Part shown: positions 1-8,281 of the stretch, in pieces
How positions within the stretch are numbered: position 1 is the stretch's first letter
Layout of the letters: each line of letters begins with the position of its first letter
Source: Methyloversatilis discipulorum
GTDB taxonomy: Bacteria > Pseudomonadota > Gammaproteobacteria > Burkholderiales > Rhodocyclaceae
Length of the DNA: 64,000 nucleotides
NCBI RefSeq assembly: GCF_018780585.1
Contig: NZ_JADMJL010000050.1
Span: 1-64,000, forward strand
Direction: 5' to 3'
Made by a program: the position numbers and the translations under genes
Notes under the pieces: generated by a model
Told to the model about the DNA's origin: nothing
Databases searched by the model: none
The model's input: only the letters and a program-made list of their open reading frames with translations

Positions 1-47
1 ACAACGGCATGTGAACGGGCGAGGGTGGGAAGGGGGTTTTTCTACAG

Positions 48-125
48 CCTCAACGTAGAGCTAACCGGCCGCCGCTTGCGGCAGTCCAGCGACCGAAGGG
101 AGCGAGGTTGATCGCCATGTTAGAT
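48..125 (-). other. attC site of cassette 1
   Basis: Integron recombination site of 78 bases. Read on the minus strand it begins with ATCTAAC (125-119), complementary in type to the GTTRRRY core, and ends with GTTGAGG (54-48), the core of the next cassette to the left. Internal L-type boxes GGTTGATCGCC and GAGCTAACC bracket an imperfect palindrome. The stop codon of the cassette gene lies inside it. Sequence left of 48 should be an older cassette or the array end; only 47 bases are visible and nothing can be assigned there. Confidence 0.85.
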
Positions 126-425
126 GCTATACCACTCGTTGGTTTTGTATTTCATCGGAATGTCCTGCTCGAACGGGTTGTCGAAGCCGAGTGATTCAAG
201 CTCATCAAACCAACGGTCGCGGAGCGATTCGGGTAGCCGCGCCCCACACCAGGGACACCATTCTATGGAGATGGAACTTGAGCCCCCATCATGAATGATC
301 AATCCGTATTCATTAAACACGGGGGAGTAATCGACCAGACAATCAGCGCATTCATAGGGCGATGAGTGCTCACTGCATTTGTTGTCAATTTGCTTTCGCA
401 TTTGGTCGCAGCAGTGGTTTGGCAT
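120..425 (-). CDS. DUF6980-like small cysteine-rich protein (cassette 1)
   Basis: A 101-residue protein carried by the outermost complete cassette. It has cysteines at 5, 6, 17, 26, 29 and a CPWCG pair at 57-60, so a small metal-binding fold is likely. The segments YGLIIHDGGSSS and LPESLRDRWFDELE match what I recall of the DUF6980 family, whose function is unknown. The start at 425 lies four bases inside the cassette core GTTAGAT (435-429), so the ribosome-binding signal must come from the neighbouring cassette. The TAA stop falls inside the attC, as is usual for cassettes. Base composition looks less GC-rich than the chromosomal genes to the right. Family assignment is from memory; the cassette status is clear. 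Confidence 0.75.
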   Translation of the reverse strand: MPNHCCDQMRKQIDNKCSEHSSPYECADCLVDYSPVFNEYGLIIHDGGSSSISIEWCPWCGARLPESLRDRWFDELESLGFDNPFEQDIPMKYKTNEWYSI

Positions 426-428
426 GAC

Positions 429-486
429 ATCTAACGTAAAGGTCAGCGGCCGCCGCAGGCGGTCCGATGGAACGACAAGTTAAAGC
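429..486 (-). other. attC site of cassette 2
   Basis: A short attC of 58 bases. On the minus strand it starts near CTTTAAC (485-479) and ends with GTTAGAT (435-429). The centre holds a GC-rich palindrome, GGCCGCCGCAGGCGGTCC. It is the shortest site in the array. Confidence 0.8.
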
Positions 487-863
487 GCATTGGCCGTCTC
501 CTGCTCTAAACCTACGGTTCCTTGCTGTGAACACGCGTACCACCGCGAACCGCTGAACGAGCAGCCCTTGCCAAAGCTGTCGACCGCGAACTCGCAGTTC
601 TCAAACTCACATTCGACAAAACGACAGTCGGCGAATGTGCAGCCCCGGAACTTCGTGTTCCTGAACTTGACACTGATAAAGACAGCCAAGTTGAACAAGC
701 CCCAGTAGAAGTCGCAGTCAACGAAGCTGCAATCAAGGAACATGGAATCTACATGGGGGCCGTCGTCTTCGATTTGGACGAACTCGCAGTAGCGAAAGGC
801 GTTTTCCGACCATCCAGGGCTACTAGGAATTCTGCCTCGGAAAGTCTCGGAGTCGACTTGCAT
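480..863 (-). CDS. Pentapeptide-repeat protein (cassette 2)
   Basis: A 127-residue protein. From about residue 24 to 108 it shows a run of five-residue steps with F or L at the centre and C or S nearby, for example FLDCSFVDCDF, FRGCTFADCRF and VECEFENCEF. This is the signature of the right-handed beta-helix pentapeptide-repeat fold. Members of the fold include the gyrase-protecting Qnr and MfpA proteins, but most have no known role and this one is too short to call Qnr. The start at 863 is four bases inside the cassette core GTTAAAG (873-867). The TAA stop lies in the attC. A second pentapeptide cassette of different sequence lies at 2370-2978. Confidence 0.85.
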   Translation of the reverse strand: MQVDSETFRGRIPSSPGWSENAFRYCEFVQIEDDGPHVDSMFLDCSFVDCDFYWGLFNLAVFISVKFRNTKFRGCTFADCRFVECEFENCEFAVDSFGKGCSFSGSRWYACSQQGTVGLEQETANAL

Positions 864-866
864 GCG

Positions 867-962
867 CTTTAACGTGGAGCTAACCGGCCGCCGGAGCGCG
901 CAGCGCGAAGGGAACCCAAAAGCGCAGCTTTTGGGCGGTCCGTGTTGAGCGCCAGGTTATGC
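867..962 (-). other. attC site of cassette 3
   Basis: A 96-base attC. On the minus strand it runs from GCATAAC (962-956) to GTTAAAG (873-867). Internal boxes GGCGCTCAACAC and GTTAGCTCCAC flank a long hairpin with CAAAAGCTGCGCTTTTG at its tip. Confidence 0.85.
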
Positions 963-1262
963 AGCAAGTGCAAAACCCAATGCAAAAGAGCCGCTGACCA
1001 AGAGAAGAAGAAAGATTTCAAACTTCAAGAACCTCGATTCACGAAAAAAGCGTCGTGCGCCGACGCGCGGCCATTGATTGAACACGAGAACCCACTGCAT
1101 CAGTAGGCAAGTTGCACCAAGCGTCCAAGGGATGGGCTTCGGTTGAGCAAGGAGAGCGGGCACCCACCACAATGCCGCGATACCACCGACAACAAGCCAA
1201 ATGAGAACCAAAAAGACATAGCCGGCACGGGCGTAAGCAGTCCAGAGTGCGTCCATATTCAT
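957..1262 (-). CDS. Small membrane protein of unknown function (cassette 3)
   Basis: A 101-residue, strongly hydrophobic protein with about three membrane segments (near residues 14-36, 43-62 and 82-100) separated by a basic stretch, RVGARRFFRESRFLK. I do not recognise a family. The start was set at 1262 (MNMDALW), with 1256 as an alternative; upstream sequence in the same frame is attC and the ORF-less cassette, so a longer protein is not believable. The TAA stop sits inside the attC. Integron cassettes often carry short membrane proteins; here only the topology can be claimed. Confidence 0.65.
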   Translation of the reverse strand: MNMDALWTAYARAGYVFLVLIWLVVGGIAALWWVPALLAQPKPIPWTLGATCLLMQWVLVFNQWPRVGARRFFRESRFLKFEIFLLLLVSGSFALGFALAA

Positions 1263-1304
1263 GAATTCGGCATCCCTCTCTCGTTCAGCGCGTCGGGGTT
1301 TGCG

Positions 1305-1400
1305 GCATAACGTCGTAGTTGTGCGGACGCCGGAGCGGCGCAGCCGCGCAGGGAACCCAAAGCGCAGCTTTGGGCGGTCCGCTCGAACGCAGTGTTGGAC
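1305..1400 (-). other. attC site of cassette 4 (ORF-less copy A)
   Basis: A 96-base attC from GTCCAAC (1400-1394) to GTTATGC (1311-1305) on the minus strand. It is the attC of the repeated ORF-less cassette. The same sequence occurs at 4886-4981 without internal differences, and with one internal change at 4104-4199 and 5251-5346 (GGGCACCC for GGGAACCC). The right-hand box is different only where it joins the neighbouring cassette. Confidence 0.9.
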
Positions 1401-1669
1401 GGCACCGAGACCGTCAGCGAAGGCACGTTGCGCATGACGAAGCCCTTGCCCCTCACAATTGATTTGAACTGAACCAGGCAAGCGGCGCCCGCTACGGCCT
1501 GCTACCCTCAATGCCCCGAAACACTAGCACAAGGGCATGGCGCAACAAGGGGCGAGCTCACTCAAGCTCGGAGTGCCGCGCCGGCACTTTGCAACGATCG
1601 TGGCAGGTGCCTGCTCGGGCGCGGAACGTCGACTTGGACCGCCCGCCTGAAACCTAAAGAACCGGTGAC
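1401..1669 (-). repeat. ORF-less integron cassette, copy A
   Basis: The 269-base body of a cassette with no convincing gene. Together with its attC it is identical by eye to copy C (1309-1676 against 4890-5257) and diverged from copies B and D. The part next to the attC is conserved in all four copies. The part at the upstream end falls into two types, A/C and B/D. On the minus strand there is a sigma70-like element, TTGTTG (1548-1543), 16 bases, TAGTGT (1526-1521), directed toward cassettes 3, 2 and 1. Reading frames cross it but copies differ mostly by amino-acid changes, which argues against coding. A promoter-carrying or RNA-producing cassette is an inference. Confidence 0.75.
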
Positions 1670-1738
1670 GTTCAACGTTTGACATGAGAGGCCAGGCCCG
1701 GCTTGCCGGGACTGGTCCTCTCGATGGAAGGGTTGGGC
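1670..1738 (-). other. attC site of cassette 5
   Basis: A 69-base attC from GCCCAAC (1738-1732) to GTTGAAC (1676-1670) on the minus strand, with a central CCCGGCAAGCCGGG palindrome. It is nearly the same as the attC of cassette 7 (2989-3057), although the two cassettes carry unrelated genes. Confidence 0.88.
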
Positions 1739-1739
1739 G

Positions 1740-2282
1740 TCATTGCAGAAGCGCCACAGACTCGTTCTTGATCTTGAACCAGTTTGCAAAGCCTCCGATG
1801 TGCTCGTAGTCGAAGGGCTGACCGTGCAAGGAACTCAGATCGATTGAAAACTGTGAGCCCTGCAGCGCGAGCGAGACGATGCGCGCGTACTCTGGCCCTC
1901 TTGCCTCCCAGAGAGGTAGCGCCGGATTGTGAGCAAACGCGCAGCGGACCATATAGACCAACGTACGCAGCTCATCGGCAGGTAGCCTCGACTTTGGTTT
2001 GCGTGACAGGCCAGCTACCGCGAACGCAGCTTCGAGCACCATTGCCGATGTTCCGAAGGCCATGCCGATAAGTGCCTGGCTGGCGGGAATGACAGCCTCG
2101 TTCGAGCTGAAATGTTTCGTAGGGAAGCCCACGTTCTCTGTCTTCAGAAGGATCGTGGTATCTGCGTCAAAGGTCTCGAGATCGAGGTGGCCACCTTCGC
2201 AGTAGCACATCAACTTGATGGCGAATTCAAGGTGGCGAAAAGCGTGTTCGACGTCGGCAAGTGCTTCAGCGATCGTGTTCAT
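1740..2282 (-). CDS. HEPN-like protein (cassette 5)
   Basis: A 180-residue soluble, helix-rich protein. Residues 113-118 read RCAFAH, an R-X4-H motif as in HEPN-domain ribonucleases, inside the context VYMVRCAFAHNPALPLWEARG. The whole resembles my memory of the plasmid pEK499 p136-type HEPN family. HEPN proteins commonly act as RNA-cutting toxins in toxin-antitoxin, abortive-infection and other defence systems; whether this one cuts RNA is unproven and no antitoxin gene shares the cassette. The start was set at 2282 (MNTIAEA), four bases inside the core GTTGAGC; an ATG further upstream would lie in attC. The TGA stop is two bases from the attC. Confidence 0.65.
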   Translation of the reverse strand: MNTIAEALADVEHAFRHLEFAIKLMCYCEGGHLDLETFDADTTILLKTENVGFPTKHFSSNEAVIPASQALIGMAFGTSAMVLEAAFAVAGLSRKPKSRLPADELRTLVYMVRCAFAHNPALPLWEARGPEYARIVSLALQGSQFSIDLSSLHGQPFDYEHIGGFANWFKIKNESVALLQ

Positions 2283-2285
2283 GAC

Positions 2286-2375
2286 GCTCAACGTGGAAGT
2301 GAGGGGCAGCCGGAGCGAAGCGGAGGGAACCACAAGCGCAGCTTGTGGCTGTCCCGCTCGACTGCAGGGTTAGAC
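2286..2375 (-). other. attC site of cassette 6
   Basis: A 90-base attC from GTCTAAC (2375-2369) to GTTGAGC (2292-2286) on the minus strand, with a hairpin containing CCACAAGCTGCGCTTGTGG. The architecture resembles that of cassettes 3 and 4. Confidence 0.88.
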
Positions 2376-2978
2376 AATGGATGGCTCATTGTGGAACTTG
2401 GTGTATTCGTTGAAGTAAACCTTGCCGGACTTCACCGAAAAGGTGGTTTTCCTCTGGGCCGGAAGAGTCGATGCATCTTCGCCAAGCCATGAAGGAAGAG
2501 TGCAATCAACAAAAGTGCAGTCTTTGAAACCGGCCGTGAATGCGTCGACGTTCAAACTGCAGTTGCTAAAAGTGCAGTCTTCGAAGTTACCAACAAACAT
2601 AGCGCCAGAGAAGTCAGTACTCTCGAACGTGCAAGAGACAAACAGACCTGTGACGTGGCTTTTCTTGGCGCGAATCTTGATGAAATTGCAGTTCTCGAAC
2701 GAACCTCCCAGCCGCGAGAATGGCCCTGACGAATCAAACAGAGAGCGCCGAATAACGCTGCTGGAGATAGTGATGCCCGTGCCTCTCTCCATGCTTGAAG
2801 AATTGGAAAAGTCGGCATCTTCAATCAGAACTCGGGTGAGCGCACTAAACCTGCAGTTTCTGAAGTCAAGCCTGTTGCTTGACGTCTTGGCCAAACTCTC
2901 TGTGGGGAGCGTGCGAACCCGGTAGTCCCCTTTTGGAGGAGGATACAGAGCCCGTAGAAGTTCGGCGTTTGTGCCCAT
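2370..2978 (-). CDS. Pentapeptide-repeat protein (cassette 6)
   Basis: A 202-residue protein with a pentapeptide-repeat core from about residue 35 to 165, with steps such as LDFRNCRFSALTR, FENCNFIKI, FVSCTFESTDF and FEDCTFSNCSL. It has a non-repeat N-terminal segment and a C-terminal tail. Residues on the solenoid faces are mainly polar, with F, C and L in the core. This is the second, longer pentapeptide cassette in the array, and its sequence is not a simple copy of the one at 480-863. Function is unknown; binding to a protein target or DNA mimicry is possible for the fold. The start at 2978 is the first ATG after the core GTTAGAC. The TAA stop is inside the attC. Confidence 0.8.
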   Translation of the reverse strand: MGTNAELLRALYPPPKGDYRVRTLPTESLAKTSSNRLDFRNCRFSALTRVLIEDADFSNSSSMERGTGITISSSVIRRSLFDSSGPFSRLGGSFENCNFIKIRAKKSHVTGLFVSCTFESTDFSGAMFVGNFEDCTFSNCSLNVDAFTAGFKDCTFVDCTLPSWLGEDASTLPAQRKTTFSVKSGKVYFNEYTKFHNEPSIV

Positions 2979-2988
2979 TCGCGATGCT

Positions 2989-3057
2989 GTCTAACGTTTG
3001 ACATGAGAGGCCCGACCCGGCTTGCCGGGGCGGGTCCTCTCAATGGAAGGGTTAGGC
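2989..3057 (-). other. attC site of cassette 7
   Basis: A 69-base attC from GCCTAAC (3057-3051, complement of the canonical GTTAGGC) to GTTAGAC (2995-2989) on the minus strand. The central palindrome is CCCGGCAAGCCGGG, as in the attC of cassette 5. Confidence 0.9.
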
Positions 3058-3615
3058 GCCGCTCTTCGCATGATTTGCTTTGAGCATGTTGCAGAACAAT
3101 GCTCCTTGTTCAATCGCATCATCAAGCGCAACGTGCGTGTGAGGAAACTTGTCGAACCACTGTTTTGGCATGTTGCGCTTGGTACTTTCTCGATACTCAG
3201 TCTTCAGCACTGCCATTGCATAGGACTTCATATCTAGCGCTGAGTGGCTGAACGGGCTCTCCCCGACAAAGCGAATGAGATACCAGTAGACGAATAGGAA
3301 GTCGAAGCCCGCCGGATAGGCGACAAATACAGGCTTTCCTTTAAGCGACTTGATCCAGTCGACGTAGGCGCGCATTGCACTTTCTGGTTTCTGCAAGTCC
3401 TTTCTGCATGCTGCCCATGCCTCTGGTTGCGTGGCCCACCATTCGGCTGTCTTTGGATGAGGCGTTGCTCCATCCAGTGTTTCGAGGTTCGCGGAGAACG
3501 TTGAGACGAGCTTCTTGTCTGCCGTATACGCAGCAGAGCCGAAGCTCAACATGGAATGAGGACCTGGGATTGGCCCGTCAGTCTCAACGTCGGTACTTAT
3601 GTAGATCTCACTCAT
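3052..3615 (-). CDS. DEDDh-family 3'-5' exonuclease (cassette 7)
   Basis: A 187-residue protein with the complete DEDDh exonuclease motif set: D9 and E11 in STDVETDG (Exo I), D105 in VAYPAGFDF (Exo II), and H161 to D166 in HVALDDA (Exo III). D128 in ALDMKSYA is also typical of this group. The family trims DNA or RNA from the 3' end using two metal ions. The protein is compact, without polymerase or helicase parts, as in RNase T-like or oligoribonuclease-like enzymes. Substrate is unknown. Similar lone exonucleases are often cassette-borne, and a role in nucleic-acid defence is possible but not shown. The stop lies in the attC. Confidence 0.85.
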
Positions 3616-3645
3616 GTAGATGTAGTTGTTGTTGTGATTGGCGGC

Positions 3646-3711
3646 GCCTAACGTGGAAATAACCGGACTGCGCGGCTTTTCGCGCAGGTCCGGTTGATTG
3701 CAGGGTTATGC
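3646..3711 (-). other. attC site of cassette 8
   Basis: A 66-base attC from GCATAAC (3711-3705) to GTTAGGC (3652-3646) on the minus strand. The inner hairpin is ACCTGCGCGAAAAGCCGCGC. Confidence 0.88.
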
Positions 3712-4107
3712 GTCTTCGCTGCCATGGCGCATGATTATTTCATGGGCATGAATATTCAACTCTTCTTCACGTTCGCCTGCAGTTGGAAACGACACAAGTC
3801 TCTGGAGTTCTGAACTAAGCTCGTCGGCAAGAGGGGCAGACTCGGCCACTATGCCGGCAAGAAGCGAATATTTCCAGGTGTCATCGTTTGTTTGAAGGAT
3901 GCGGCGGATATGTGGTGCAAGCGGAGTGCCGATAGATGCCAAAAACGGACATAGCACGCTTGCCACAGGCCAATTGAGATCTTGGACCCACTCAAGAAGC
4001 GACGGAAGGATTGGCTCGACTTCCGGGTAACCCAAAGTGACAATGGCTTCGGCTTTCGCAGTGTCGTGCTTGCCAGCCGGCAGAAGGGAGCTGAGGTCAA
4101 GACGCAT
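3706..4107 (-). CDS. DUF5071-like protein (cassette 8)
   Basis: A 133-residue helical protein. The pattern LLPAGKHDT near the N-terminus, then LGYPEVEPILPSLLEWVQD, NWPVASVL and TNDDTWKYSLL, matches the DUF5071 family as I recall it, an uncharacterised HEAT-like group seen near polymorphic-toxin and immunity genes. The start at 4107 is notable: its ATG is part of the recombination core itself (GTTATGC, 4110-4104), so the cassette has no untranslated leader and must borrow its ribosome-binding site from whichever cassette is upstream, here ORF-less copy B. The TAA stop is inside the attC. Function is unknown. Confidence 0.75.
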   Translation of the reverse strand: MRLDLSSLLPAGKHDTAKAEAIVTLGYPEVEPILPSLLEWVQDLNWPVASVLCPFLASIGTPLAPHIRRILQTNDDTWKYSLLAGIVAESAPLADELSSELQRLVSFPTAGEREEELNIHAHEIIMRHGSEDA

Positions 4108-4199
4108 AACGTCGTAGTTGTGCGGACGCCGGAGCGGCGCAGCCGCGCAGGGCACCCAAAGCGCAGCTTTGGGCGGTCCGCTCGAACGCAGTGTTGGAC
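4104..4199 (-). other. attC site of cassette 9 (ORF-less copy B)
   Basis: A 96-base attC from GTCCAAC (4199-4193) to GTTATGC (4110-4104) on the minus strand. It belongs to the repeated ORF-less cassette and overlaps the start codon of the DUF5071-like gene. Confidence 0.9.
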
Positions 4200-4467
4200 G
4201 ACACCGAGACCGTCAGCGAAGGCACGTTGCGCATGACAAAGCCCTTGCCCCTCACAATTGATTTGAACTGAACCAGGCCAGCGGCGCCCGCTAGGGCCTG
4301 CTGCCCTCAATGCCCCGAAACACTAGCACAAGGGCATGGCGCGACAAGGGGCGACCTCACGCGTGAGCGGAGTGCGCAGCGACCACTCTCGCTGACCGCT
4401 GCAGACGCTGGCTCGGGCGCTGGACGCCGACTTGGACCGCCCGCCAGGAACACGAAGAACCGGTGAC
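4200..4467 (-). repeat. ORF-less integron cassette, copy B
   Basis: A 268-base cassette body, the B/D type of the repeated ORF-less cassette. The half near the attC closely follows copies A and C, while the upstream half is largely different from A/C and similar to copy D. The minus-strand promoter-like element is kept: TTGTCG (4347-4342), 16 bases, TAGTGT (4325-4320). It sits about 210 bases upstream of the leaderless DUF5071-like gene. No open frame shows signs of purifying selection. Confidence 0.72.
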
Positions 4468-4554
4468 GTTCAACGTAGAGCTAACCGGCGCTGCGCGGCT
4501 TTATCGCGCAGCGTCCAGCGACCGAAGGGAGCGAGGTTGAGCGCCGGGTTGGGC
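4468..4554 (-). other. attC site of cassette 10
   Basis: An 87-base attC from GCCCAAC (4554-4548) to GTTGAAC (4474-4468) on the minus strand. The flanks (GGCGCTCAACCTCGC and GGTTAGCTCTACG) closely match the attC of cassette 1. Confidence 0.88.
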
Positions 4555-4555
4555 G

Positions 4556-4882
4556 TCACCTTGCGACTCCATATTTTTCGCCTAGGTCGAGCATATGATG
4601 TCCGAGAACCTGCCGGAGCAACTTGTCGATGACAACGACGAGATATAGGTTGCTTTTGTGCGTTGGAATCAGTACGTGCTGGAACGCGCCGTTGCTCGAC
4701 TCGTAGATGTGCTTGACGTTCCAGTCGCAGGAACATACCTCTGGGAATTCCTGACGTAGCGCGGGTTCAGCGTAGCCCCACAAATCTATGACTTCTTCAG
4801 CGTTGTTAGTTACGTCATTCATGGGCGGAATAAAGGTCGCCCCGAATTCAGACTCACTGAGTGTGCGCGGAGAAGTTGTCAT
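4556..4882 (-). CDS. Unknown protein, integron-cassette type (cassette 10)
   Basis: A 108-residue soluble protein. The C-terminal pattern YLVVVIDKLLRQVLGHHMLDLGEKYG resembles a group of uncharacterised proteins that I remember from other integron cassettes, but I cannot name a family. The start was set at 4882 (MTTSPRT), four bases inside the core GTTGAGC (4892-4886). The same frame is open upstream through the whole ORF-less copy C, which would give an N-terminally extended product; I regard that as incidental. The TGA stop is two bases from the attC. No signal peptide or membrane segment. Confidence 0.65.
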   Translation of the reverse strand: MTTSPRTLSESEFGATFIPPMNDVTNNAEEVIDLWGYAEPALRQEFPEVCSCDWNVKHIYESSNGAFQHVLIPTHKSNLYLVVVIDKLLRQVLGHHMLDLGEKYGVAR

Positions 4883-4885
4883 GAT

Positions 4886-4981
4886 GCTCAACGTCGTAGT
4901 TGTGCGGACGCCGGAGCGGCGCAGCCGCGCAGGGAACCCAAAGCGCAGCTTTGGGCGGTCCGCTCGAACGCAGTGTTGGAC
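4886..4981 (-). other. attC site of cassette 11 (ORF-less copy C)
   Basis: A 96-base attC from GTCCAAC (4981-4975) to GTTGAGC (4892-4886) on the minus strand. From 4890 it is identical to copy A's attC. Confidence 0.9.
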
Positions 4982-5250
4982 GGCACCGAGACCGTCAGCG
5001 AAGGCACGTTGCGCATGACGAAGCCCTTGCCCCTCACAATTGATTTGAACTGAACCAGGCAAGCGGCGCCCGCTACGGCCTGCTACCCTCAATGCCCCGA
5101 AACACTAGCACAAGGGCATGGCGCAACAAGGGGCGAGCTCACTCAAGCTCGGAGTGCCGCGCCGGCACTTTGCAACGATCGTGGCAGGTGCCTGCTCGGG
5201 CGCGGAACGTCGACTTGGACCGCCCGCCTGAAACCTAAAGAACCGGTGAC
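4982..5250 (-). repeat. ORF-less integron cassette, copy C
   Basis: A 269-base body identical by eye to copy A. The promoter-like element is TTGTTG (5129-5124), 16 bases, TAGTGT (5107-5102) on the minus strand, directed to cassette 10. It lies in tandem with copy D, so the two cassettes nearest attI are both ORF-less. Confidence 0.75.
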
Positions 5251-5346
5251 GTTCAACGTCGTAGTTGTGCGGACGCCGGAGCGGCGCAGCCGCGCAGGGC
5301 ACCCAAAGCGCAGCTTTGGGCGGTCCGCTCGAACGCAGTGTTGGAC
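5251..5346 (-). other. attC site of cassette 12 (ORF-less copy D)
   Basis: A 96-base attC from GTCCAAC (5346-5340) to GTTGAAC (5257-5251) on the minus strand. It is the attC of the cassette adjoining attI. Confidence 0.9.
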
Positions 5347-5614
5347 GACACCGAGACCGTCAGCGAAGACTCGTTGTGCATGACGAAGCCCTTGCCCCTC
5401 ATAGTTGATCTGAACTGATCCAGGCCAGCGGCGCTCGCTACGGCCTGCCGCCCTCAATGCCCCGAAACACTAGCACACGGGCATGGCGCGACAAGGGGCG
5501 ACCTCACGCGTGCTCGGAGTGCGCGGCGACCGCTTTCGCTGACCGCTGCAGTCGCTGGCTCGGGTGACGGACGCCGACTCGGACCGCCCGCCAGAAACAC
5601 GAAGAACCGGTGAC
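5347..5614 (-). repeat. ORF-less integron cassette, copy D (first position)
   Basis: A 268-base body, B/D type, in the first array position. The promoter-like element is TTGTCG (5494-5489), 16 bases, TAGTGT (5472-5467) on the minus strand. Relative to copy B it carries scattered single changes. Being next to attI it is probably the most recently inserted or re-inserted cassette. Confidence 0.75.
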
Positions 5615-5680
5615 GTTCAACTTTGTTTTCTGGCGCAGTTTTGCGCCATAACTACGGAGGCTGCCGGATAAACAGGCCAG
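5615..5680 (-). other. attI: attI site
   Basis: Primary recombination site between integrase gene and array. Read on the minus strand, 5632-5615 is GAAAACAAAGTTGAAC-like: the AAAACAAAGTT run before the crossover triplet equals the 3' end of class 1 attI as I know it. The crossover core is GTTGAAC (5621-5615), joined to ORF-less copy D. The outer limit (about 5680) is set by the usual 65-base length, since direct-repeat accessory sites were not resolved. Confidence 0.8.
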
Positions 5681-5701
5681 GGTGATGGCAGGGAAACGGC
5701 C

Positions 5702-5730
5702 TTGCCATAACGGTTTCAGCTGCCTATGCT
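5702..5730 (+). promoter_or_regulatory. Promoter of the integrase gene (PintI)
   Basis: A sigma70 promoter with -35 TTGCCA (5702-5707), a 17-base spacer and -10 TATGCT (5725-5730). Transcription should start near 5737, about 20 bases before the intI ATG. The -10 box overlaps the LexA site. Confidence 0.7.
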
Positions 5731-5744
5731 GTATATTCATACAG
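5729..5744 (+). promoter_or_regulatory. LexA (SOS) box
   Basis: CTGTATATTCATACAG fits the CTG-N10-CAG LexA consensus exactly and is almost palindromic. It covers the end of the -10 element and the expected start point of intI transcription, the position where LexA would block the polymerase. SOS control of integron integrases is established for class 1 and Vibrio integrons; here it is predicted from the site. Confidence 0.85.
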
Positions 5745-5756
5745 CATTAAACGGCG

Positions 5757-6764
5757 ATGAAAAACCTCACCCCTTCACTTCCGCCCCTGAAATCGGTTCG
5801 CTTGCTCGATCAACTGCGCGAGCGGGTTCGCTATCTTCATTACACCATAAGCACCGAAAAGACATATGTGTATTGGGTGAGGGCCTTCATCAGGTTTCAC
5901 CGGCTGCGTCACCCGGCCACGATGGGGCGGGTCGAGATCGAGGCTTTTCTGTCCTGGCTGGCCAATGAGCGCAGTGTCGCGGTGTCGACGCACAAGCAGG
6001 CGCTGTCGGCGCTGCTCTTTCTTTACAGGCATGTACTCGGCATCGACCTGCCGTGGATGAGCGAGATCGGTCGGCCGCGTACGACGCGCCGTTTACCTGT
6101 TGTGCTGTCGCCCGAAGAGGTGAAACGCGTCTTCGAGCGGCTGGACGGCGAGCACCGCCTGTTTGCGCAGTTGCTCTATGGGACCGGCATGCGGCTGACG
6201 GAGGGCCTGTGCCTGCGGGTGAAGGATGTCGATTTCGAACGCCTCACGCTCATCGTGCGTGAGGGCAAGGGGCGGAAGGACCGCGCACTGATGCTGCCGC
6301 AGTCGCTGGTGCAGCCCCTGCGTGACCAGATGGCGCGTGCCCGGTTGCTGTGGGACGACGACAGACGCGCTGGGCGCGCCGGCGTCGATATGCCGGACGC
6401 GATTGCCCGCAAGTATCCGCGTGCAGATGCGTCCTGGGCCTGGTTCTGGGTGTTTCCTCAGGCGGACCATGCGGTGGATCCGCGCAGTGGCGTGGTCCGC
6501 CGTCACCACATGTACGACCAGACCTTCCAGCGGGCCTTTCAGCGCGCGGCGCAAAGGTCAGGGCTGCACAAGCCGGCGACGCCGCACACTTTGCGGCACT
6601 CCTTCGCCACTGCCCTGCTGCAGTCCGGCTACGACATCCGCACGGTTCAGGATCTGCTCGGCCATGCGGACGTGTCGACCACCATGATCTACACGCATGT
6701 GCTCAAGGTCGGGGGCGGCGGCGTGCGCAGCCCTCTGGACGCGCTGCTGGCACCGTCCGCCTGA
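5757..6764 (+). CDS. intI: Integron integrase, IntI1-like tyrosine recombinase
   Basis: A 335-residue site-specific tyrosine recombinase that inserts and excises cassettes at attI and attC. All catalytic residues are present at the numbering known for IntI1: R146, K171, H277, R280, H303 and nucleophile Y312. The integron-specific insertion is intact around residues 214-233 ([17 protein letters not shown]). N-terminal text [17 protein letters not shown] and the region [19 protein letters not shown] are very close to IntI1, so the enzyme belongs to the IntI1-like soil/freshwater clade rather than the Vibrio type. The start at 5757 matches the IntI1 start and follows the LexA box by 12 bases. 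The gene is intact, so the array is probably still active. It converges with gatB. Confidence 0.95.
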
Positions 6765-6811
6765 CCGGGCAGGCAGCGGGGCGCGGCTTGCGCGCCCTGG
6801 TGTACCCGATG

Positions 6812-8281
6812 TCAGCCGCCCAGCTTCTTCTTCAGCAGCTCGTTCACCTGCGCCGGGCTGGCCTTGCCTCGGCTGGCTTTCATCACCTGGCCGACTAGGG
6901 CGTTGAAGGCCTTTTCCTTGCCGGCGCGGTATTCCTCGACCGACTTCGGGTTGGCGGCCAGCACTTCGTCGATGATGGGTTCGATGGCCGAGGCGTCGGT
7001 CACCTGCTTCAGGCCCTGCGCGTCGATGATGGCGTCGGCATCCGGGCCTTCGCCGTTCCACAGCGCGTCGAACACCTTCTTGCCGATGCTGTTCGAGATC
7101 GTGTTGTCGGCGATGCGGGCGACCAGGCCGGCGAGCTGGGCCGGGCTGACCGGGCTTTGCGCGATGTCGCGCTCTTCGCGGTTCAGGCGTGCGGCCAGTT
7201 CGCCCATGACCCAGTTGGCGAGCGGTTTAGCCAACTGAGTGGCCTGCGCAGCGCCGGCGATGGCGAGCGCGTCGGTGAAGTACTGGGCGGTTTCGCGGCT
7301 GGCGGTGATGCCGGCGGCGTCGTAGGCGGACAGGCCGTAGTCCGATTGCAGGCGCGCGGCCAGCGCGGCCGGCAGTTCCGGCATGGCGCGGCGCACTTCG
7401 TCCACCCATTCGGCGGCGATCACCAGCGGCGGCAGGTCGGGGTCGGGGAAGTAGCGGTAGTCGTGCGCGTCTTCCTTGCTGCGCATCATGCGGGTTTCAC
7501 CGCTGTCCGGGTCGAACAGCACGGTGGCTTGCTGGATCTTGTGGCCGTCCTCGATCTGTTCGATCTGCCACTGGATTTCGTAGTCGATCGCCTGCTGCAG
7601 GAAGCGGAAGCTGTTCAGGTTCTTGATTTCACGGCGGGTGCCCAGCGGCTCGCCCGGGCGACGTACGCTCACGTTGGCGTCGCAGCGGAAGCTGCCTTCC
7701 TGCATGTTGCCGTCACAGATGTCGACCCAGCGCACCAGCGCATGCAGCGCGCGCGCATAGGCCACCGCCTCGGCGCTGGACGACATGTCGGGCTCGCTGA
7801 CGATTTCCAGCAGCGGCGTGCCGGCGCGGTTCAGGTCTATGCCCGACATGCCATGGAAATCTTCGTGCAGGCTCTTGCCGGCGTCTTCTTCGAGATGGGC
7901 ACGGGTGAGCCGTACCACTTTCTCGTAAGCCTTGTCACCCTCGCCGACTCGTATCGTCAGCGTGCCGCCCTGCACCACCGGCAGTTCGTATTGGCTGATC
8001 TGATAGCCCTTCGGCAGGTCGGGGTAGAAGTAATTCTTGCGCGCGAACACCGAGCGCGGTGCGACGGTGGCGCCGATGGCGAGGCCGAAGCGGATGGCGC
8101 GCTCGACGGCGGCGCGATTCATCACCGGCAGCACGCCGGGCAGCGCCAGGTCGACCGGGCTGGCCTGCGCGTTGGGCGCGGCGCCGAAGGCGGTCGAGCT
8201 GCCGGAGAAGATTTTCGAGGCCGTGTTCAGCTGGGTATGTGTTTCCAGACCGATCACGACTTCCCAGTTCGCTCTGCTCAT
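6812..8281 (-). CDS. gatB: Asp-tRNA(Asn)/Glu-tRNA(Gln) amidotransferase subunit B
   Basis: A 489-residue GatB, full length for the family. It provides the tRNA-binding and kinase part of GatCAB, which converts Glu-tRNA(Gln) and Asp-tRNA(Asn) to the amidated forms using ammonia channelled from GatA. The N-terminus reads [15 protein letters not shown], followed by [15 protein letters not shown] and the [15 protein letters not shown] block, all typical. The C-terminal YqeY-like domain ends in KKKLGG. It lies downstream of gatC and gatA, separated from gatA by two small genes, all on one strand. Its end faces the integrase gene; 47 bases between them contain a short GGGCGCG...GCGCGCCC hairpin that could end both transcripts. 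Confidence 0.96.

Follow-up and report, generated by a model that had tools for sequence, protein, structure and literature searches.

A conserved core resembling a sigma-70 promoter in a family of gene-free integron cassettes of Methyloversatilis

Introduction

How cassettes far from the cassette promoter (Pc) of a long integron array are expressed is an open question, and it is touched by a family of gene-free cassettes in Methyloversatilis discipulorum. The DNA analyzed here is a stretch of 64,000 nucleotides (positions 1 to 64,000 of contig NZ_JADMJL010000050.1; hereafter the window). It carries a chromosomal integron whose cassette array occupies window positions 1-5621, with the cassettes on the minus strand running leftwards from the integrase gene intI. 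Four of the cassettes (copies A, B, C and D) are copies of one cassette without an open reading frame (ORF). An earlier note on this DNA, made from the letters alone, had proposed that they could be promoter cassettes or RNA genes. What, then, do these cassettes carry? Our analysis favors a dedicated promoter cassette under purifying selection, a reading to which we assign a probability of about 0.62. Promoter cassettes have been described in Vibrio and Treponema; what is new here is a conserved core, with a partly covarying dyad around the -10 element.

Results

Four copies of one gene-free cassette

The four-copy repeat described in the earlier note was confirmed. The family accounts for four of the 12 cassettes in the window (boundaries by reading of the sequence), all on the minus strand, and our independent reading of the boundaries gave the same cassette numbers, 4, 9, 11 and 12. 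A and C are equal in every letter over 368 bp. As a repeat, A and D extend to 1679 and 5624, slightly past the limits in Table 1. B and D make up the second subtype, as had also been stated: they are 91% identical to each other over cassette positions 25-277 and 82-85% identical to A/C. Each copy has at its 3′ end an attC-like end with core sites, as judged from the alignment, and D is the first cassette of the array, next to attI and intI. A strict attC pattern recognized the 96-bp attC of D and also those of relatives at loci L074, L076, L077, L079 and L080; it missed the attC of A, B and C, and recognized only three attC sites in the window.

Including relatives in other genomes of the genus, 22 copies of the family were compared; they fall into two types, with two array-end copies handled apart. 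Type I cassettes occur in G000 (the genome of the window), G001 and G010, and type II cassettes in G006, G011 and G012. In the tree, A/C cluster with two G010 copies (support 97/94). After each other, B and D are most similar to the copies of G001 and to a single copy of G010 (87-89%), in a branching order that the tree does not settle. The tandem order Ia then Ib was found both in G000 (D, C) and in G010 (L074 9558, 9194). Thus, the subtypes are older than these genomes or were moved together.

A conserved core in the middle of the cassette

According to the earlier note, the half of the cassette next to the attC is conserved between types and the upstream half is not. The comparison between types bears this out, but the description overlooks where most of the conservation lies: in the attC and in a single core of 42 bp in the middle of the cassette. 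Between types I and II (up to 84 pairs), 0.096 differences per site were found in the core (positions 125-175) and 0.107 in the attC. The flanks gave 0.615 (25-124), 0.402 (176-235) and 0.438 (257-277), and intermediate values were obtained for positions 236-256 (0.214) and the 5′ end (4-24; 0.238). When the sites of types I and II were shuffled together, an equally conserved 51-bp stretch was produced in none of 5000 shuffles, which treat every site as independent and count related copies as rows of their own. Copy C, being equal to A, was excluded from the rows for divergence, coding and core alignment, and two array-end copies were handled apart.

Apart from one G-to-A change, which brings the -10 closer to the consensus, CCCCTTGT, CCATG and GTGCTAGTGTTTC do not vary among 19 distinct copies. 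As a separate observation, the ~20 bp that directly follow the recombination point (TTGAACGTCACCGGTTCTT; positions 4-24; D 5601-5621, minus strand) can be aligned in both types, with 0.24 differences per site versus 0.62 over the following 100 bp.

A sigma-70-like site on the sense strand of the core

In 20 of the 22 rows (19 of 21 distinct ones), scored as segments with 60-bp flanks, the sigma-70-like site that scored best on the sense strand lies in the core. The site consists of TTGTNG (TTGTTA in one row), 16 bp, and TAGTGT or TAGTAT with an upstream TG. The two rows in which another site scored best are the array-end copies without attC in G010 and G001. With the 61-bp cores of A/C, B and D, an equal score was reached in 0.15-2.9% of letter shuffles and in 0.55-3.3% of Markov sequences modeled on the array, and the antisense strand of these cores scored 0.05-1.1. 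The promoter matrix was built on base frequencies from the literature. In a check by eye against consensus sequences for sigma 32, sigma 54 and sigma E, only a resemblance of the -35 to that of sigma 32 was seen.

The site lies on the cassette strand and is thus oriented toward the next cassette. What follows the copies was surveyed for 20 of the 22, namely 18 with an intact core and the two array-end copies, but not for the two that lie at the end of a contig. In 13 of the 18, an ORF begins 1-47 bp downstream on the cassette strand, with a different N-terminus each time. Four of the other five precede another copy, and for one no ORF of 60 aa was found.

No convincing coding frame

The earlier note had stated that frames crossing the copies change amino acids freely, and had proposed measuring dN/dS (omega) for them over more copies. 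The test was run on groups of copies from the family and gave no convincing coding signal: no frame free of stops in every row also showed convincing purifying selection. Translations of the 22 copies contained stops, type I frames shifted through a 1-bp length difference, and no common peptide was visible. Frames open in all rows were found in the type II 5′ half (antisense, 7/7 rows, omega 0.65; sense, 7/7, 0.78) and in type I (3′ half sense, 9/9, 0.88; 5′ half sense, 5/5 of one length group, 0.95), and one further such frame, with four rows, had an omega of 5.2. The smallest values of all, 0.10 and 0.16, were obtained with four rows in the 3′ half of type II, in frames with stops in one and in all four of these rows, respectively.

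Columns were shuffled with rows from six of the seven type II copies and, among the 12 type I copies, from seven (5′ half) and nine (3′ half) of one length. For the first three open frames, an omega as low or lower was obtained in 65, 124 and 198 of 500 shuffles. A low omega together with an open frame was obtained in 9, 2 and 14 of 500, several frames and segments having been tried. These joint counts are small mainly because stop-free frames are rare (53, 21 and 47 of 500 on their own). We take no frame as coding; a small peptide in type II has at best a low probability. In the type II cassettes at L079 13133-16652, the antisense frame of the 5′ half exits the cassette at its 5′ edge, mostly from an ATG (MRF/MHF). 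Longer frames called mechanically overlap the copies but extend beyond the cassette. For comparison, gene-less cassettes were defined in a Vibrio study (PMC11014356) as having no annotated gene and no ORF >210 bp.

A dyad around the -10 element

The halves of a dyad around the -10 read ATGCC[CT] and [GA]GGCAT across the copies, and its six pairs can form in 11-12 of the 12 type I and 6-7 of the 7 type II copies. At pair 146:163, 11 type I copies have C:G; T:A takes its place in six type II copies and in one of type I, and the remaining type II copy has C:A. Pairs 144:165 and 145:164 are broken in single copies, and one copy has a gap at position 168. An arm of 6 bp arises in 15% of shuffles and is therefore not beyond chance; what speaks for the dyad is its covariation and conservation.

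Folding of the sense strand of five cores was compared with that of shuffles. Two gave z-scores of -2.2 and -2.1 and the other three -0.1 to -1.2, and the whole cassette gave +0.34. In window positions 1-7000, there were no Rfam matches at E values up to 1. A terminator scan of positions 1-6800 gave nine calls versus 7.4 expected. The sole call inside a copy is weak and lies in the core of D (5490-5474), and none lies between core and attC.

Altered cores in copies at array ends

Two copies at array ends (L077 14796-15225 and L075 7366-7807) have no attC and look like old cassettes that have lost it. Their cores carry changes at positions that do not vary in the other copies: one has G133C, the other has A154G, and both are changed at 139 and 157. 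Compared with type I, they show 0.189 differences per site in the core, 0.191 in positions 176-235 and 0.316 in 25-124. The changes in the core fit relaxed selection once a copy is stuck.

Occurrence in other genomes

The search of genomes for the cassette family, which the earlier note had suggested, was positive for 6 of 13 genus genomes. With up to three mismatches allowed, a core pattern of 32 letters occurs 20 times in these six genomes; control matches numbered zero, and every match in the 13 genomes is a copy of the cassette family. The genome of the window has a fifth copy on contig C66, with its attC partly missing.

In a sample of 399 genomes of the order, the motif was found only in the window's own genome (0 of the 398 others). 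Among 395 genomes of the taxonomic family, matches beyond the genus were at most 63 letters long, mostly in the attC, and among the two candidates scored per genome no match reached across the core; up to 11 candidates were scored in another search, and weak relatives may be missed with these numbers. A blastn comparison of D with plasmids and phages gave no match, nor did the exact 32-letter pattern in viral contigs or a 46-letter core pattern in a collection of genome contigs. In that collection, the 32-letter pattern matched only two stretches, both of Methyloversatilis sp. XJ19-49, whose contig NZ_JANINI010000002.1 holds the motif. The contig collections may omit records close to the window's own genome.

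An IntI homologue (E up to 1e-60) was found in 10 of the 13 genomes, in G001 as two pieces that overlap and lie in different frames. In five of the genomes with the homologue (G002-G005 and G008), the core motif was not found. G010 has the cassettes, and no IntI homologue was found there at E values up to 1e-60. An attI-like stretch is retained with cassettes in this genome (L076 7268-8687), and one cassette near it is 99.8% identical to a cassette in another cluster of the same genome.

Table 1. Positions of the gene-free cassettes, their parts and neighboring features in the window
Feature	Positions	Strand	Remarks
Gene-free cassette, copy A (subtype Ib)	1309..1676	-	identical to C
Gene-free cassette, copy B (subtype Ia)	4108..4474	-	
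Gene-free cassette, copy C (subtype Ib)	4890..5257	-	second from attI, in tandem with D
Gene-free cassette, copy D (subtype Ia)	5255..5621	-	first cassette, adjoins attI
attC of D	5255..5347	-	C 4890-4982; B 4108-4200; A 1309-1401; limits from alignment
Conserved core of D	5457..5498	-	C 5092-5133; B 4310-4351; A 1511-1552
-35-like TTGTCG in D	5489..5494	-	C TTGTTG 5124-5129; B TTGTCG 4342-4347; A TTGTTG 1543-1548
-10-like TAGTGT in D, after TGC (extended -10)	5467..5472	-	C 5102-5107; B 4320-4325; A 1521-1526
Dyad around -10 in D	5457..5484	-	ATGCCC (5479-5484) / GGGCAT (5457-5462); half-sites 22 bp centre to centre
attI / intI promoter region	5622..5756	.	limits inferred; Pint-like site TTGCCA-17-TATGCT
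LexA-like box CTGTATATTCATACAG	5729-5744		overlaps -10 of the intI promoter-like site (window 5725-5744)
intI, integron integrase, 335 aa	5757..6764	+	opposite direction to cassettes
ORF, 108 aa, cassette just downstream of C	4556..4882	-	no Pfam match; starts 8 bp after C
ORF, 133 aa, cassette just downstream of B	3706..4107	-	DUF5071; starts 1 bp after B
ORF, 101 aa, cassette just downstream of A	957..1262	-	no Pfam match; starts 47 bp after A

Discussion

Of the two functions proposed in the earlier note, the promoter is better supported than the RNA gene. It is favored by the conserved sigma-70-like site on the sense strand, the lack of a convincing coding frame, the varied ORFs downstream and the altered cores of the end copies. 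A core that is conserved between species and altered in two copies without attC is comparative evidence of retention for a function in cis, and it gives an exact candidate promoter site. From these comparisons we infer that the core acts as a promoter, that it is of the sigma-70 type, and that selection acts through the downstream genes.

If so, IntI would move the cassette through its conserved attC, as with any gene cassette, and the payload would be a mid-cassette promoter of the sigma-70 type (TTGTNG, 16 bp, TGCTAGTGT). Transcription would be expected to start ~7 bp past the -10, near cassette position 165. Since the promoter is directed along the array, RNA polymerase would read ~200 nt through the attC into the next cassette. 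Long arrays would thereby obtain local transcription regardless of the distance from Pc, and copies could multiply or stand in tandem. The family members are probably movable on-switches for neighboring genes.

Several results weigh against a promoter. As for conservation, the signal is modest in type I alone: 111 of 5000 site shuffles were as low, the lowest window begins at position 118 rather than 125, and divergence is lower at the 5′ end (0.058) and in the attC (0.044) than in the core (0.080). The core of the end copies has diverged as much as positions 176-235, yet less than 25-124. Seven of the 13 genus genomes gave no match to the core motif, so the core is dispensable. As for the site itself, A and C score 6.9, which lies within the top 0.1% of positions, so that a single such site per cassette is not rare alone. 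In the segment L074_7574, taken with its flanks, the antisense strand scores higher than the sense strand (8.3 versus 6.9). TAGTGT agrees with the -10 consensus at three of six letters and the -35 at three to four of six. A strict scan (at least 9 of 12 hexamer matches, spacer 16-18) found no site within the copies, and one site in positions 1-6800 versus a shuffled mean of 1.7. Furthermore, the non-consensus letters G155 and T156 and letters outside the hexamers are equally invariant, which indicates a constraint on the core beyond promoter strength. In Vibrio, in silico prediction failed to find the active gene-less cassettes (PMC11014356).

The core and the family can be explained in other ways. 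The core could be an RNA element, such as a leader hairpin or a small RNA whose transcription begins at Pc or at another promoter upstream, with ATGCCC/GGGCAT forming the stem and GTGCTAGTGTTTCG the conserved loop. The six pairs are kept in nearly all copies, T:A at 146:163 arises separately in both types, and two of the five sense cores fold better than shuffles; against this stand the other three cores, the z-score of the whole cassette, the frequency of a 6-bp arm in shuffles, the lack of Rfam matches and the lack of a terminator-like call between core and attC. We regard an RNA element as improbable, and the RNA gene of the earlier note, whose folding is not consistently better than that of shuffles, loses ground with it. 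About as improbable is a selfish gene-less cassette with a superior attC, in which the core would be an accessory cis element for recombination (a protein site or single-strand hairpin). It is favored by the nearly equal conservation of attC and core between types, by the tandem and identical copies, and by the altered core in both copies without attC. Against it, cassettes are not known to require another cis element for recombination, an accidental promoter-like site at the core would be uncommon, and copies persist in G010, where intI was not found at the threshold given above. If instead the core were mainly a binding site of a regulator, as a promoter open to repression or activation or as a silencer, the invariant letters beyond the promoter consensus and the partly covarying dyad centered in the -10 would be accounted for. 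We hold this, too, to be improbable and, if anything, slightly more so: no regulator was identified, and the 32-letter motif (up to three mismatches) was not found outside the family copies in the 13 genus and 399 order genomes, where a shorter operator would escape the pattern.

A small protein, encoded for instance antisense in the 5′ half of type II or by a type I sense frame across the attC, is very improbable. The frames open in all rows, with omegas of 0.65-0.95, and the small joint counts in the shuffles speak for it, and they are opposed by the frequency of equally low omegas alone with several frames tried, by the stops in the frames of lowest omega and by the change of frame among type I copies of different length. 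Least probable of all, and hardly credible, is a neutral leftover, namely a decayed and recently duplicated gene cassette without function. A and C are indeed identical, and some gene-less cassettes of Vibrio resemble decayed gene cassettes (PMC11014356), yet a core with 0.096 differences per site between flanks of 0.40-0.62 would be unexpected under neutrality. Returning to the promoter cassette, its dyad might be the operator of one regulator, so that scattered and tandem copies share a signal and a regulon is built by site-specific recombination. This is an unlikely extension; if true, integrons could shuffle regulation besides genes.

Gene-less cassettes have been studied in other bacteria, and the following comparisons draw on parts of the respective reports. 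In Vibrio superintegrons, promoter activity of such cassettes was demonstrated by reporters, reverse transcription quantitative PCR and rapid amplification of 5′ cDNA ends (Blanco et al. 2024, PMC11014356); start sites were focused in some cassettes and scattered in others, and partly spurious transcription was considered for some. The family described here shares with them the lack of a gene, the attC, the place in a chromosomal integron array and a promoter signal on the sense strand. The Vibrio cassettes transcribe into downstream cassettes, and the present one is oriented likewise, with a promoter predicted from sequence alone. Unlike in Vibrio, one core is here conserved between species; such a core is not described in the portions of PMC11014356 considered. 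In Treponema, ORF-less cassettes act as promoters in a reporter assay (2019, PMC6557892); they are ORF-less like the present family, belong to other organisms, and are set beside it by description rather than by sequence. A recurrent 'empty' cassette with a suggested promoter role is known from Xanthomonas integrons (PMC12444791). It is gene-free and can be present several times per array, like our family; the parts of that report used here give no sequence analysis or conserved core, and the comparison is again one of description. The sRNA-Xcc1 cassette of Xanthomonas shares the trait of a non-coding function on an integron cassette. Unlike the present family, it also holds symE, and both are directed opposite to Pc (PMC12444791). 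As judged by titles and the beginnings of abstracts, no paper found on Methyloversatilis and integrons dealt with this subject, and none found in further searches describes a conserved core in a gene-less cassette.

Integrase, array ends and insertion sequences

The intI product has the Pfam domains Phage_integrase (E 3.8e-42) and Phage_int_SAM_4. The LexA-like box CTGTATATTCATACAG overlaps the -10 of the intI promoter-like site. This suggests that the integrase gene is under SOS control.

With the family masked, no other repeats of at least 120 bp were found in either of two array pieces of the window's genome, window positions 1-5640 and L082 12100-19944, or between them (BLAST, E up to 1e-10). 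In the arrays of other genomes, likewise masked, other cassettes and a 1.8-kb insertion sequence are repeated or common to several.

Both end copies are followed by an insertion-sequence-like remnant and then a methyltransferase gene. Its homologue in G000 adjoins the array remnant on C66. We considered an origin of the cassette body from the promoter of the methyltransferase gene by the array end (G001, G010) and dropped it. In G000, the gene (C66:37612-38307) lies >1.5 kb from the nearest body match (C66:39885-40131); homologues are present in G002 and G004 (52% and 49%), with no body match there apart from one of at most 27 nt in G002; and the DNA that follows each end copy is in part similar to an insertion-sequence end (77-79% over 53-61 nt).

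Window positions 1-56 are the end of an insertion sequence, 90% identical over 58 nt to a copy on C66 (L082 16660-18470) whose transposase has DDE_Tnp_1_6 and DUF772 domains. C66 terminates in the opposite end of a related copy (L082 19885-19944). Since ends of the insertion sequence lie at both contig ends, the array probably runs on to C66 across an insertion sequence sitting in an attC.

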